Part shown: one piece after another, positions 3,071 through 23,210 of the stretch
Layout: each line of letters opens with the position of its first letter
Numbering within the stretch: the stretch's first letter is position 1
From: a virus
Virus record (IMG/VR): IMGVR_UViG_3300027782_000216
Span: 1 to 33,588 of that record
DNA: 33,588 nucleotides
Strand: one strand, 5' to 3'
Position numbers and translations under genes: made by a program
Notes under the pieces: model-generated
The model's database searches: none
Told to the model about the DNA's origin: nothing
What the model saw: the letters and a program-made list of their open reading frames with translations, nothing else

Positions 3071-3225
3071 TGCACTCCCCTTAATTGCCAGCCCATTAAG
3101 AAATAAATCCACCGTGTCTGAACGCTTGTATTGGTATATCGGTCTTTAACTTTGGTAAAGTCAGAGTAACCCCGAGCCACCATCATGGCCTCAAATACTT
3201 GCTGTGCTTTAGTCATGTTTTTCAT
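3067..3225 (-). CDS. Small hypothetical protein, 52 residues
   Basis: Translating the gap between the neighbouring genes gives MKNMTKAQQVFEAM, then VARGYSDFTKVKDRY, and a Trp-rich end (RWIYFLMGWQ). The pattern of an aromatic start and a W...GWQ end occurs in many short phage early proteins. Its 3' end overlaps the next gene (TGA/ATG) and its 5' end overlaps the 3' end of the 210-residue gene, as everywhere in this operon. The start could be 3225 or the Met at 3216. Neither has a strong ribosome site. The function is unknown. Confidence 0.6.
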   Translation of the reverse strand: MKNMTKAQQVFEAMMVARGYSDFTKVKDRYTNTSVQTRWIYFLMGWQLRGVQ

Positions 3226-3841
3226 CTATTGTGTAAAACCAATCATCCCCCGCTGACCATTTGCGTGTGCCATCCACCGACCACAAATGTTGCGCGGCTT
3301 GGAAATCGGGAAACTTGGTTTGTGCAGTCACAAGGCTTTGGTCATACCACAGGCAACGGTTGTTTGGTTGGCAAGCAAATTGACCATCTTCTAATTTAAT
3401 CCAGTTAAAACTCTTATGCTCCTCGGCGGTCTCTGTAAAGCTAGTGTCTAAATCCATGCCATCGGCACAAAAGTCAACGGTAAACAGGTATGTGCCAAAG
3501 TGCCATTGTTTATCTTTACCAAGAAACTTGACCCCCAAGTTACGCAAGCCAATCTTTTCAACAATGGTAAACCGATACCCCATGCAGTCCCACAATTGCA
3601 AAATGTCTACTGGCAGGTCACTAGCGCCCTCTTTCCACACATAAGCGTGGATGGGTAGTTTGTCGTATAAAGCGCCGTAATCGGTTAGCAGCGATTCAAT
3701 CCGAAACACTTGCCCTCTGAGGGCTTTAAGGCTGACCCACACGCAAGGCACAAGCTCGCCATGCCCTTTGGTGTGGTTGTACAAGAATTCAGCCTTTACA
3801 AAGCATTTAATAGGCGGCAAAGATGAAATAAGGTAACTCAA
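3209..3841 (-). CDS. Conserved-looking hypothetical protein, TTG start
   Basis: I place the start at TTG 3841: it overlaps the upstream TGA (TTGA) and has a GGGAG site five bases away. An ATG at 3874 would overlap the winged-helix gene more and has no such site. The 210-residue product begins (M)SYLISSLPPIKCFVKAEF. It is rich in Trp/Phe/His (DCMGYRF, KQWHFGTYLFTVDFCADG, CLWYDQS). There are no membrane segments and no motif I recognise. A compact alpha/beta protein is likely. Its place beside the ERF/YqaJ genes suggests an early role, but nothing more can be said. Confidence 0.7.
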   Translation of the reverse strand: MSYLISSLPPIKCFVKAEFLYNHTKGHGELVPCVWVSLKALRGQVFRIESLLTDYGALYDKLPIHAYVWKEGASDLPVDILQLWDCMGYRFTIVEKIGLRNLGVKFLGKDKQWHFGTYLFTVDFCADGMDLDTSFTETAEEHKSFNWIKLEDGQFACQPNNRCLWYDQSLVTAQTKFPDFQAAQHLWSVDGTRKWSAGDDWFYTIDEKHD

Positions 3842-4140
3842 ATTAACTCCCGTTGTACCGGCACAAATTGCCATTCTCTTTCTGCTCTACCTGAGTTGGA
3901 TTTGGTAGTGCGCCCCGTAAGCTCCACACGCCCATCTTTCTCAAGCTCTTTCATACGCCTAGCCACCTGGTTGCCATCAAGCCCCACCAGCTCGGCTATG
4001 CCATCCTTGCCCATTGGCCCAAAGCGGCGCAGACACTCTACGATCTTTTCAAAGTGCTGCTTGGCAAGGTCAATGGATTGGTCTGCTGCGGCGTGGCTAG
4101 TAAAGGGGTCTAGCCCCCTTGCTCTAAAAAGGGATGTCAT
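3838..4140 (-). CDS. Winged-helix phage protein
   Basis: The chosen start is MTSLFRARGLDPFTSHAAAD at 4140, behind an AGGGGC site; upstream Met codons lack one. The 100-residue product has an N-terminal 'DPxTSHxAA' block. A winged-helix fold follows: FEKIVECLRRFGPMGKDG, IAELVGLDGNQVARR as the helix-turn-helix, and DGRVELTGRTTKS as the wing. Similar small phage proteins are annotated as helix-turn-helix or MarR-like. It might bind DNA as a regulator or an accessory to recombination. It overlaps the next gene by four bases and the SSB-like gene by 17. Confidence 0.7.
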   Translation of the reverse strand: MTSLFRARGLDPFTSHAAADQSIDLAKQHFEKIVECLRRFGPMGKDGIAELVGLDGNQVARRMKELEKDGRVELTGRTTKSNSGRAEREWQFVPVQRELI

Positions 4141-6266: not shown

Positions 6267-6317
6267 GGTGTTTTCCCTAATGCTGCTTATTTGTTAATTA
6301 GGCTTTACAATCCCCTA

Positions 6318-6473
6318 ATGACAAAACAAGAATTAGTGCATTTGGCAGGCTCACAGAGTGAGCTTGCTAGGATATTGAGGATTTCTAGGGCAGCGGTGTG
6401 TTTGTGGAAAAAAGTCCCCGAGCTACGCTTGCGCCAGCTTAGAGACTTGCGCCCCGAGTGGTTTGTGCTATGA
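6318..6473 (+). CDS. Cro/YdaS-like helix-turn-helix regulator
   Basis: This 51-residue protein, starting at MTKQELVHLAGSQSE, has a helix-turn-helix at about residues 10-32 (GSQSELARILRISRAAVCLW). The short 'VPELRLRQLRDL' tail is typical of YdaS/Cro-like phage repressors. It should bind the neighbouring operator and set the direction of early transcription. It sits in the divergent gap, opposite the minus operon and upstream of the replication gene, as Cro does in lambdoid phages. No CI-type partner was found. The ATG at 6318 is preferred over 6291 because homologous small Cro proteins begin with M-T/K-K. Confidence 0.75.
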   Translation: MTKQELVHLAGSQSELARILRISRAAVCLWKKVPELRLRQLRDLRPEWFVL

Positions 6474-6474
6474 T
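6447..6474 (+). promoter_or_regulatory. Extended -10 promoter at the 3' end of the cro-like gene
   Basis: TGCTATGAT gives an extended -10 (TG-N-TATGAT, hexamer 6469-6474). A weak -35, TTGCGC, lies at 6447-6452 with a 16-base spacer. The stop codon of the regulator gene overlaps the -10 box. The predicted transcript start near 6481 coincides with the first base of a possible structured RNA, so this could drive a separate small RNA or the replication operon. Confidence 0.45.
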
Positions 6475-6481
6475 TTTTTGA

Positions 6482-6549
6482 AACGTGGCTAGGGTAGCTC
6501 CCGAAAAGACGATTCTTCACCGTCCTGCCAATGTTTCTCATGTGAAGAT
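6482..6549 (+). ncRNA. Possible structured leader or C4-like antisense RNA
   Basis: The non-coding gap 6474-6570 can fold as two hairpins enclosed by TGGC/GCCA (6486-6489 with 6527-6530). Hairpin one is GGG/CCC (6492-6494, 6500-6502). Hairpin two is GACG/CGTC (6508-6511, 6521-6524). The loop of hairpin two, TCTTCAC (6514-6520), is perfectly complementary to GTGAAGA at 6542-6548, so a pseudoknot or loop switch is possible. Two hairpins inside a closing stem resemble the phage C4 antisense RNA class (Rfam C4). It ends just before the ribosome site of the replication gene. The stems are short, so this remains a hypothesis. Confidence 0.35.
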
Positions 6550-6570
6550 GACCGATGAAGTAAGGTTTTT

Positions 6571-7311
6571 ATGCACTATTACCAATTTAATATTGGCGAC
6601 TATCAGAGTCACACAAATCATTTAGACCCTCTTGAAGATTTGGCTTACCGCCGAATGCTTGATTGGTGTTATCTCCACGAAAAACCCCTACCATTAGATG
6701 CCAACGAAATTGCAAGAATCATTCGTTTGCGTGATCATGCCGCCATTATTAGGGATGTGCTTACCGAGTTTTTTAGCCGATATGGTGAGGGTTGGGTTTG
6801 TGATCGAGTGCTTGAAGAAATCCAGCATTACAAGGCAAAAATTGAACAAGCGTCTAGGGCTGGTAAAGCATCCGCTGAACGTAGGTCTAACGAGCGTTTA
6901 ACAAACGTTCAACCAACCAATAACCAAGAACCAATAACCAATAACCATATTAAAGAATCTAAAGATTCTTTGTCGGCAGGGTTGCCGACTTGCCCTCATC
7001 AGGACATTCTAAATCTTTACAAAAAGCATTTACCCCAATTAGCCCAGCCAAGGGTTTGGGATGGGGTCAGGCAAACCAACTTACGGCAAAGATGGTTACA
7101 AGCTGCCAAGCCGTCAATATTTAGCCCACAGGGGTACGCCTCGCAAACCGAGGGGTTAGCCTGGTGGGATTCTTTTTTTGCTTATATTGCCAACGATACC
7201 AAGCTGGCGCAGGGGTTTGAAACCAAGGATAGGACATGGCGACCTGATCTTGTGTGGATAGTGAATGCAACCAATTTTGCCAAGATAATTGATGGAAAGT
7301 ACCAAAAATGA
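6571..7311 (+). CDS. DUF1376 (YdaU-like) phage replication protein
   Basis: This 246-residue protein has the DUF1376 domain at its N-terminus: MHYYQFNIGDYQSHTNHL, then LEDLAYRRMLDWCYLHEKPLP and a winged-helix-like ANEIARIIRLRDH. A basic linker (KASAERRSNERLT) and an Asn/Gln-rich hinge follow. The C-terminal half is of the type seen in phage replication initiators (ILNLYKKHLPQL, LRQRWLQAAK, WWDSFFAYI). DUF1376 proteins are thought to open the phage origin, as lambda O does. No helicase loader was seen. A TAAGG ribosome site precedes the ATG. The stop overlaps the next start (ATGA). Confidence 0.85.
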   Translation: MHYYQFNIGDYQSHTNHLDPLEDLAYRRMLDWCYLHEKPLPLDANEIARIIRLRDHAAIIRDVLTEFFSRYGEGWVCDRVLEEIQHYKAKIEQASRAGKASAERRSNERLTNVQPTNNQEPITNNHIKESKDSLSAGLPTCPHQDILNLYKKHLPQLAQPRVWDGVRQTNLRQRWLQAAKPSIFSPQGYASQTEGLAWWDSFFAYIANDTKLAQGFETKDRTWRPDLVWIVNATNFAKIIDGKYQK

Positions 7312-7541
7312 CTTTTGCTAAACCTGAAACCAAAAAAGATGACAATTTTGATGCCATGCAACGCCTTATGTGCTCTGTGCATGGTTGCCCAAACCGTTGG
7401 TCGGTTCACATGGAGGGCGAAAAACCCAAGTGTTCTAAGCATCAATGGGAAAAACAAGACTACAAAGCGCCCGATTTAAAAGAAGTTTTTAAAAATTCAA
7501 GCCCTGTAAAGCATTGGCAAGATGATGGGGAGGTGTTTTGA
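7308..7541 (+). CDS. Small zinc-binding-motif phage protein
   Basis: This 77-residue protein carries four possible metal ligands in the order CSVHGC (22, 27), then CSKH (42, 45), with NRWSVHM between them. This motif often follows DUF1376 genes in phages. It may help load the replication machinery or bind DNA, but no activity is established. The gene overlaps its neighbours at both ends and shares the last base of its TGA with the ATG of the methyltransferase. Confidence 0.7.
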   Translation: MTFAKPETKKDDNFDAMQRLMCSVHGCPNRWSVHMEGEKPKCSKHQWEKQDYKAPDLKEVFKNSSPVKHWQDDGEVF

Positions 7542-8617
7542 TGAACAAGATTGAATTTGGTGATTGCCGCCAAACTATGCGTAGCTGGAAAGAGCAGGGC
7601 ATAAAGGCACAAACTTGCGTTACTAGCCCCCCTTATTTTGGTTTGCGTGACTATGGAACAGCAAAGTGGGAAGGTGGTGACGTTAATTGTGAACACTCCA
7701 TATCTATGCCAACCAAATGGAATGATCCAAAGCGTGGAACTAACGTTTTAAGACCCGAAACAGGACATAGAGGTGGATCATTTAAATATTGCCACAAATG
7801 TGGGGCAACAAGGATTGATGAACAAATTGGTTTAGAAGAGACACCCGAAGAATACATTGCAGCAATGGTTGAAGTATTTAGATGTGTGCGTGATGTGCTG
7901 GAGGATGATGGGACGCTATGGCTGAACATTGGTGACAGTTATTGCAATAGCAATGGTTTTGCTAGAGCCAGCCCTGAATATCAGCGTGAAGGCAGAAACA
8001 ATATGCCAGCTAATGATAGAAAGCTAGACAAACTGCATGAAACAGGATTAAAGACCAAAGACCTTATCGGCATCCCTTGGATGCTGGCGTTTGCACTAAG
8101 GGCTGATGGCTGGTATTTACGACAAGACATTATTTGGCATAAGCCAAACCCAATGCCTGAGTCGGTGCAGGACAGATGCACCAAAGCGCATGAATACATT
8201 TTTCTTTTGAGCAAAAAGCAGAAGTATTACTACGATGTTGAAGCCGTAAAAGAACCTGTTGAAAACATGGGTAAACCAAGAAAATTTAGAGATGGAGATG
8301 CCTCTGCAACATTAAGAAATGATGAGGGGCGAATGTACATTCCTAAAGAAGACAGGAACAAACGCAGCGTTTGGACAGTCAATACAAAACCTTACGCTAG
8401 CGCACACTTTGCAGTATTTCCAACGGAATTGATTGAGCCTTGCATTCTTGCTGGCGCACCAATTGGCGGCATAGTGCTTGATCCTTTTATGGGTAGCGGC
8501 ACTACGGCACAAGTAGCGCAAGACCTTGGGCGGCAGTATCTTGGCTGTGAACTAAACCCCGAATACAAACCATTGCAAGATAAAAGAATCAGCCAAATGT
8601 CTTTGGTACTGGAGTAA
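7541..8617 (+). CDS. DNA methyltransferase, N4-cytosine/N6-adenine (beta-type order)
   Basis: This 358-residue protein has the catalytic motif IV as TSPPYFGLRDYG (28-39). The SAM-binding motif I is DPFMGSGTTAQVA, beginning at about residue 314. The order IV before I marks the beta group. SPPY allows either N4-cytosine or N6-adenine, so the base is uncertain. A zinc-like insertion (CEH, then CHKCG) lies at about residues 50-88. LEDDGTLWLNIGDSY and GIPWMLAFALRADGWYLRQDIIWHK are typical of phage modification enzymes. No cognate endonuclease is adjacent, so it is probably an orphan that protects phage DNA. The ATG at 7541 has a GGGAGG site seven bases upstream. Confidence 0.9.
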   Translation: MNKIEFGDCRQTMRSWKEQGIKAQTCVTSPPYFGLRDYGTAKWEGGDVNCEHSISMPTKWNDPKRGTNVLRPETGHRGGSFKYCHKCGATRIDEQIGLEETPEEYIAAMVEVFRCVRDVLEDDGTLWLNIGDSYCNSNGFARASPEYQREGRNNMPANDRKLDKLHETGLKTKDLIGIPWMLAFALRADGWYLRQDIIWHKPNPMPESVQDRCTKAHEYIFLLSKKQKYYYDVEAVKEPVENMGKPRKFRDGDASATLRNDEGRMYIPKEDRNKRSVWTVNTKPYASAHFAVFPTELIEPCILAGAPIGGIVLDPFMGSGTTAQVAQDLGRQYLGCELNPEYKPLQDKRISQMSLVLE

Positions 8618-22045: not shown

Positions 22046-22491
22046 ACGTAGACTTGCATTCCGACATTTCGGACATTAAATGCGACCTAAGAAAACTTGA
22101 AATTGCTAGTGATTCTGCTGATGCGGTGGCGGCAATTCACGTTTTAGAGCATTTTTATGAGTGGGAAGTTTATGACCTGCTAACCGAGTGGAAACGGGTG
22201 CTAAAGCCAGGCGGCAAAATGATCTTAGAGCTACCTTGTATGGATAAGGTGTTTGCCTATGTCCACAATTGCGTGATTAAAAAAGAGCCATTACAGCCGT
22301 TTATGACCCTAAATGCCTTGTACGGTGACCCTAAACATAAAGCCGAGGCAATGTGCCACCATTGGGGTTGGTTTCAGCGCCCATTGCAAGATATGTTGGA
22401 AACCGTTGGTATGCAAAACATTACGTTTTGTGAGCCTCGCTACCATTTCCCATTTCGTGACATGAGGGTGGAATGCTTAAAGGGGTCTTAA
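21889..22491 (+). CDS. SAM-dependent methyltransferase, class I
   Basis: This 200-residue protein has the SAM motif YNLGCGKKKWDGWINVDLHSD. It continues IKCDLRKLEIASDSADAVAAIHVLEHFYEW (motifs II-III) and LTEWKRVLKPGGKMILELPC. These are features of methyltransferase type 11/12 enzymes that act on sugars, lipids or small molecules. The ATG at 21889 has AGAGGG just upstream but lies 157 bases inside the preceding gene. GTG 21979 is an alternative closer to the SAM motif. It sits between the two DUF115 genes, so it probably methylates the same glycan. Confidence 0.8.
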   Translation: MDKTAEYERTYIQGAEVRDGRILASNTDRQVEESYETAYNLGCGKKKWDGWINVDLHSDISDIKCDLRKLEIASDSADAVAAIHVLEHFYEWEVYDLLTEWKRVLKPGGKMILELPCMDKVFAYVHNCVIKKEPLQPFMTLNALYGDPKHKAEAMCHHWGWFQRPLQDMLETVGMQNITFCEPRYHFPFRDMRVECLKGS

Positions 22492-23210
22492 CTAATGCCG
22501 AGCGCCATGAGCAGATGGCAAAGTCAATGCACTTGCCCATGCTCAAGAAAAAAGGCAAATTTAACAACCGGCGCATGACCATTGCTTGTTACGGCCCAAG
22601 CCTTGCAGACACTTGGCGGCAGCTTAAGCGCCCAATAATGACGGTCTCAGGGGCGCATGATTACTTGGTAGAAAGGGGAGTTATCCCCGACTTCCACGTT
22701 GATTGCGACCCAAGACCGCACAAAGCGCAAATGTTAAGCAAGCCGCAAAAGGAAACTAAATACCTGATGGCCTCGGTCTGCCATCCAAACTTTTGGGAAA
22801 TTCTTAAAGGTAAAAATGTTAAGGTATGGCATTTGATAAATGGCGATGATTTAGAAACGGTGGCATGGGTTGCTCAGCACCACAAAGAGGGAATGGAAAG
22901 CCTGATTGGTGGCGGTTCTAGTGTAGGCATGAGGGCAATGAATGTTTCGGCGGCTTTAGGGTTTCGCCGGTTTGACATTCATGGCATGGATTGTTCATTC
23001 ACAAATAACCGCCACGCAGGTGCTCATACTGGCAAAGATCAAGTTAAAATCATGGTCAATGTTGGTTTGAGAACTTTCCAAACAACACAGCAGATGCTTC
23101 AGGCGGCAATTGAAATGGAAAATTTCATTGAAACGCAGGATGCGGAAGTGGTGTTTTACGGTGATGGACTTATGCAGGAAACTGCTTTCAAACTCAAGGA
23201 ATTAGCATGA
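22473..23210 (+). CDS. DUF115/MAF-like protein, stand-alone
   Basis: This 245-residue protein contains a single DUF115-like domain: MTIACYGPSLADTWRQL, then VSGAHDYLVERGVIPDFHVDCDP and LIGGGSSVGMRAMNVSAALGFRRFDIHGMDCS. It aligns by eye with residues about 40-215 of the protein at 20414-22045 (GAHDxLxExGVxPD, LIGGGxxxGxRA, FGFDS/HGMDCS), so the two are paralogues. The N-terminus is basic. The start overlaps the methyltransferase by 19 bases and the end overlaps the next gene by four. It lacks the GT-B half. Confidence 0.8.
   Translation: MLKGVLTNAERHEQMAKSMHLPMLKKKGKFNNRRMTIACYGPSLADTWRQLKRPIMTVSGAHDYLVERGVIPDFHVDCDPRPHKAQMLSKPQKETKYLMASVCHPNFWEILKGKNVKVWHLINGDDLETVAWVAQHHKEGMESLIGGGSSVGMRAMNVSAALGFRRFDIHGMDCSFTNNRHAGAHTGKDQVKIMVNVGLRTFQTTQQMLQAAIEMENFIETQDAEVVFYGDGLMQETAFKLKELA

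Follow-up and report, generated by a model that had tools for sequence, protein, structure and literature searches.

The window analysed here, that is, the whole stretch of 33,588 nucleotides, corresponds to the viral record IMGVR_UViG_3300027782_000216, a linear and possibly fragmentary one. Between positions 6474 and 6570 it contains a non-coding gap that separates a small Cro-like HTH regulator (6318-6473, plus strand) from a gene for a DUF1376 primosomal/replication-initiation protein of 246 aa (6571-7311, plus strand). The regulator fits P22_Cro with 29.4 bits (E 6.8e-7), slightly below the curated cut-off of 30.2, as well as a PHROG transcriptional regulator, and an alternative TTG start is possible at 6291. 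The product of 6571-7311 matches PF07120 (E 3.3e-21) and the PHROG primosomal and replication-initiation families. Two genes past it, presumably in the same operon, a N6/N4 DNA methylase is encoded (7538-8617; E 1.6e-53). Elsewhere in the window there are a 221-aa protein on the minus strand (3209-3874) that matches PHROG 3704 (labelled ferredoxin, auxiliary gene; E 2.2e-73) and has no Pfam match, and a MptE-like domain protein (22473-23207; E 3.7e-18) inside the structural gene block.

At the end of the regulator a putative promoter can be read (6447-6474, plus strand), composed of TTGCGC at 6447-6452, a spacer of 16 nt and the extended -10 element TGC-TATGAT (TG at 6466-6467, hexamer at 6469-6474). 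The hexamer overlaps the regulator stop codon TGA (6471-6473), as the initial annotation had described. A generic sigma-70 scan did not call the promoter at 6447-6474. Related to this, viral relatives carry -10-like hexamers mostly 2-7 nt 5' of the RNA described below, with a score of 3.55 against 3.00 in shuffled sequences, and the hexamer is strong in 44 of the 48 members of the DUF1376 group; in the elements from bacterial genomes such hexamers are not enriched upstream (2.75 vs 2.67). Judging from these promoter-like letters, transcription is predicted to start at about 6480-6482.

When the whole window was searched with cmscan, the single match above the curated cut-off was the int-alpA RNA (RF02996), located at 6482-6548 with 39.6 bits against a cut-off of 35.8 (E 5.7e-5 in the window). 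The RNA at 6480-6548 (plus strand) is a member of this family. It consists of a closing stem (6480-6489/6527-6537, with one bulge) that encloses two plus-strand hairpins: hairpin 1 (6492-6502), whose loop UAGCU (6495-6499) contains the palindrome AGCU, and hairpin 2 (6508-6524), with the specificity loop AUUCUUCAC at 6512-6520. The match extends over the full length of the model, sharing with it the closing stem, the CUAG motif, the GAAAAG linker and both hairpins. The segment called site 1 below also lies within the Rfam model, where the consensus AAGGG is paired by the loop CCUUU, whereas site 2, which is linked to the ribosome-binding site, falls outside it. A further difference is that the window RNA precedes a replication gene, with neither integrase nor AlpA in the window; the setting of integrase and alpA neighbours, which gave the family its name and is not a criterion of membership, is absent at this locus. 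Many bacterial int-alpA elements have an integrase-like open frame just 5'. The motif was reportedly described in one primary paper. The family is listed by Rfam as type 'Gene; sRNA', a literature search found no published function for it, and its mention in E. coli is a genome prediction (PMC12370729).

The folding energy of the element is not better than that of shuffled sequences (z +1.03 for 6481-6570 and +0.18 for 6482-6549), and this is what could be said for a chance fold in an ordinary intergenic gap. That the fold goes beyond chance follows from comparative evidence, namely the Rfam match, the covariation of the helices, the covariation of loop and flank and the -10-like hexamers of the viral members. 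Among relatives the helices accumulate 254 double-change cells, against 96.9+-7.3 in shuffled and 21-39 in slid versions, and the hairpin-2 loop co-varies with both of its sites in many of them. The chance explanation is refuted by this covariation, and its probability is practically nil. The observation of the initial annotation, two hairpins in a closing stem, is therefore confirmed, with a fold backed by relatives and not by energy alone. Its interpretation is supported in part, and the idea withstood the refuting condition named there, missing covariation in related phages.

Hairpin 2 is the part of the RNA that faces the downstream gene. Its loop bases UCUUCAC (6514-6520) are fully complementary to GUGAAGA at 6542-6548 (site 1, plus strand), with 21 bases between them, exactly as had been noticed at the outset. 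There is a second target, which had been missed: a small predicted hairpin (6550-6567, plus strand; GACC/GGUU) carries UGAAG at 6556-6560 (site 2) next to the Shine-Dalgarno sequence UAAGG at 6561-6565. The calculated duplex of the loop with site 1 is worth -7.7 kcal/mol and that with site 2, of only 5 bp, -4.2 kcal/mol. A longer example is found in L305, where the loop UCUCAUCAC is accompanied by the sites GUGAUGA and UGAUGAGA.

For each hairpin-2 loop, the fit to the gap of its own element was set against the fit to the gaps of other loop types, using 116 loop types and permutations that are tree-free. In the site 1 region the cognate score was 6.12 and the non-cognate one 4.10 (z 22), and in positions -20 to -1 of the next gene, where site 2 lies, 6.37 and 4.71 (z 17.7). 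The 40 nt upstream of the RNA gave z -0.8 against loop 2, the hairpin-1 loop against the gap z -0.3, and loop 2 against the first 20 nt of the gene z 2.2. Restricting the comparison to 29 loops more than 3 edits apart left z 10.4 for site 1 and 7.8 for site 2, both controls being null, and the cognate signal persisted without the DUF1376 genes and in bacterial genomes alone. Reversed loops were somewhat above permutation (z 3.7 and 3.1), which means that a minor part of the signal is composition. In the window-type alignment of 23 sequences, site 1 is paired in 91.3% of the cells with double-sided changes at 3 pairs, and site 2 in 98.9% with double-sided changes at 3 of 4 pairs. In contigs that hold two elements (L305, L227), the best overall fit of a loop is to the gap of its own element; the exception is L300, in which the very short loop of one element does not discriminate between gaps. 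Pairing of the hairpin-2 loop with both sites is therefore well supported by covariation, and the flank match first noticed appears to be functional, being one of two targets. Two further candidates, a target upstream of the RNA of the seqA/a1b1 type and an additional antisense role of the hairpin-1 loop towards the gap, were rejected on the z values of -0.8 and -0.3.

The median distance from the beginning of site 2 to the start codon is 12 nt, some start codons downstream of the elements having been assigned mechanically (e.g. in L033), and this places site 2 at the ribosome-binding site as judged by comparison. In the window the second target lies at the Shine-Dalgarno sequence of the replication gene, so that the neighbouring gene would be the target after all: the initial annotation was right in expecting a target other than an antirepressor gene, and incomplete in having only the flank match.

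The same annotation had thought of a C4-type antisense RNA. In C4 the b' loop occludes a ribosome-binding site; loops a' and b' are both used, and the RNA is cut from a longer transcript by RNase P (PMC5320573). The similar outline, with a closing stem and two hairpins, and the pairing of a loop near the ribosome-binding site speak for true membership of that family. However, the C4 model (RF01695) has no match at E<=10 in 6380-6680, whereas it scores the P4 cI and N15 regions, taken as positive controls, at 74.9 and 78.8 bits; the targets are on the downstream side of the RNA, unlike a1b1, which is upstream, and no antirepressor gene is adjacent. Conversely, the model built from int-alpA-like RNAs does not detect P4 or N15 at E<=0.05. 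By these tests int-alpA and C4 are separate families with outlines alike, and true C4 membership, which we consider extremely improbable, was rejected. What holds of the idea is the logic: as in C4 of P1/P7, a hairpin loop is complementary to a ribosome-binding-site region of the next gene, on the same transcript, which is a likeness of working and not of family. The window RNA belongs to another sequence and structure family, has one loop for two downstream sites, and its 5' end may be a transcription start instead of an RNase P product.

The RNA is found in many other places. Among 80 viral loci that encode relatives of the DUF1376 protein, most have it directly 5' of the gene, and a pattern scan of viral contigs added many more elements among the matches listed. 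A covariance model made from 29 sequences retrieved at least 199 elements, viral and bacterial. In bacterial genome contigs the loci given by a loose pattern scan were mostly chance and were excluded; the RF02996 search used instead gave matches above the cut-off in 39 of the 369 genomes from the class to which a Methylomonas MAG belongs and in 5 of the 289 from that of a Rhizobium genome; the 14 control genomes had none. The genes behind the RNA vary: besides DUF1376 there are another replication-type protein, primase-like proteins, nucleases of the HNH_3, NUMOD4 and GIY-YIG kinds, Phage_pRha and small genes of the late region. The E. coli case is a DUF551 gene, located in a prophage with lysis genes on one side and terminase genes on the other. 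Cultured phages that carry the element include Enterobacter phage Tyrion, Edwardsiella phage GF-2 and Pseudomonas phage IME307.

Several of these settings deserve mention on their own. In ten loci (L305, L223, L227, L316, L261, L251, L206, L294, L300 and L330) int-alpA-like RNAs stand before HNH/NUMOD4/GIY-YIG endonuclease-like phage genes, mostly with two complementary sites, and in L261 a group I intron (2658-2892; RF00028, 73.1 bits) lies shortly behind the HNH/NUMOD4 gene that the RNA precedes. In L326 (Tyrion) and L361 (the E. coli prophage) the RNA comes before small genes (DUF551 in E. coli) near the lysis/terminase genes, a moron-like place. A gene of the Rha family of regulators (L361:1320-1862) lies directly 5' of the int-alpA/DUF551 unit of that prophage, and L252 has a Phage_pRha gene that is preceded by an int-alpA-like RNA.

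The RNA and the gene behind it do not keep the same company. Between the window and L004 the gap is 58% identical and the gene 87-91%, and between the window and L033 the gap is 98% identical, the gene 67-82% and the regulator region 77%. Comparison thus shows the RNA cassette to be exchanged independently of the replication gene.

On these grounds we propose that the int-alpA-family RNA is probably an antisense brake on translation of the adjacent replication gene. A short RNA would begin at about 6480 with its hairpin-2 loop exposed, and read-through of the same strand would produce the leader of the replication mRNA, containing two copies of the loop complement. A loop sitting on site 2, beside the Shine-Dalgarno sequence, would hinder ribosome binding. 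The stronger site 1 could hold the own loop of the full-length mRNA, and closure of site 2 would then depend on the loops of other, shorter RNAs that have no site 1. As site 2 would be shut by the loops of separate short RNAs, repression would depend on RNA dose, which is what one would expect if the RNA served timing, copy control or the exclusion of another phage with the same specificity. We infer the short RNA, its action in trans and repression rather than activation from the exposed anti-Shine-Dalgarno loop, the viral -10-like hexamers, the U-rich run after the stem, the cassette exchange and the analogy with C4 and P4 CI. In the window the U-run that follows the closing stem is weak (UUUCUCAU) and a terminator scan called no terminator there; any 3' end given for the short RNA would thus be a guess. 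A domain search of the window found no Phage_integrase, Phage_AlpA or HTH_3 repressor; lysogenic immunity is therefore not an obvious purpose at this locus, and timing, copy control or like-phage exclusion would fit better. Roles in termination and in immunity are likewise conjectural.

The RNAs of the CopA/RNAI type, which are transcribed from the opposite strand, exert antisense control on plasmid replication, and their diversified loops define incompatibility. The window RNA would resemble them as a small RNA limiting a replication function in trans; it differs in sharing a strand with its target and lying upstream of it.

Another parallel is the CI immunity RNA of satellite phage P4, which pairs with seqA and seqC and stops transcription of the replication operon, its complementary sites flanking the CI RNA on both sides (PMC4825925). 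Here too the leader of a replication operon offers a single RNA two complementary sites, and it could be argued that transcription ends prematurely, short of the replication gene, when the RNA pairs with the nascent leader. Site 1 would then be the equivalent of seqC and any effect on translation secondary; that P4 CI acts at two such sites on its replication operon (PMC4825925) gives this some weight. However, site 2 tracks the Shine-Dalgarno sequence of very different genes, at the median distance given above, for which termination has no need, and P4 CI is a C4-family RNA that the model of int-alpA-like RNAs misses. Both sites of the window RNA are also downstream, unlike those of P4 CI, the 40 nt upstream being without cognate signal. 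We consider a termination mechanism of this type unlikely.

The cis-switching RNA that the initial annotation suggested survives as one of several readings. The gene would be on when the loop of an mRNA holds site 1 of that molecule and off when it holds site 2, a two-state pseudoknot switch that a ligand, a protein or translation upstream would read, with no separate small RNA. Both sites are on the same transcript, fit the loop and are mutually exclusive, and bacterial elements often begin 6-12 nt past an upstream stop codon without an obvious promoter, all of which favours a leader acting only in cis. Such a leader gives no evident reason for the fast diversification of the loops and the exchange of cassettes, nor for the palindromic hairpin-1 loops of viruses, and the viral -10-like hexamers point to a dedicated transcript, though a 5' leader needs one too. 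It seems to us a rather doubtful alternative, if one to be kept in mind.

The spacing just mentioned belongs to the elements from bacterial genomes (L324-L360), whose upstream frames are integrase-like or, by eye, antitoxin- or RelE-like. The window has an equal spacing, with the stop at 6471-6473 and the stem from 6480. Upstream translation might affect the folding of the closing stem.

Hairpin 1 shows a different trend from hairpin 2. In viral members its loops contain a palindrome of at least 4 bases in 35 of 48 types, with ten different cores, against 16.2+-2.8 in shuffles, whereas the viral hairpin-2 loops have fewer palindromes than shuffles (8 vs 21.3). These loops hint that two RNA copies could kiss through hairpin 1. 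The common bacterial hairpin-1 loop, GACG, has no palindrome, and a palindromic hairpin 1 is therefore not family-wide.

Returning to the translation brake, a wider reading of the family can be put forward tentatively, at somewhat less than an even chance. According to it, int-alpA would be a portable lock-and-key brake on translation, made up of promoter, RNA, site 1, and site 2 with the ribosome-binding site, and placed before unrelated phage, satellite and homing-endonuclease genes. The hypervariable loop would set the specificity and incompatibility of co-infecting elements, and palindromic hairpin-1 loops would dock copies by kissing.

Although int-alpA RNAs are listed in Rfam, no function was found published for them, and the comparative data give them a concrete job, the pairing of a loop with two sites in a leader. 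If the proposal is true, a second, separately built family would join the antisense control of phages by C4/CI-type RNAs, and the quieting of replication genes and of selfish nucleases would be explained. Naturally diverse RNA brakes, each with its cognate sites, would then be on offer.
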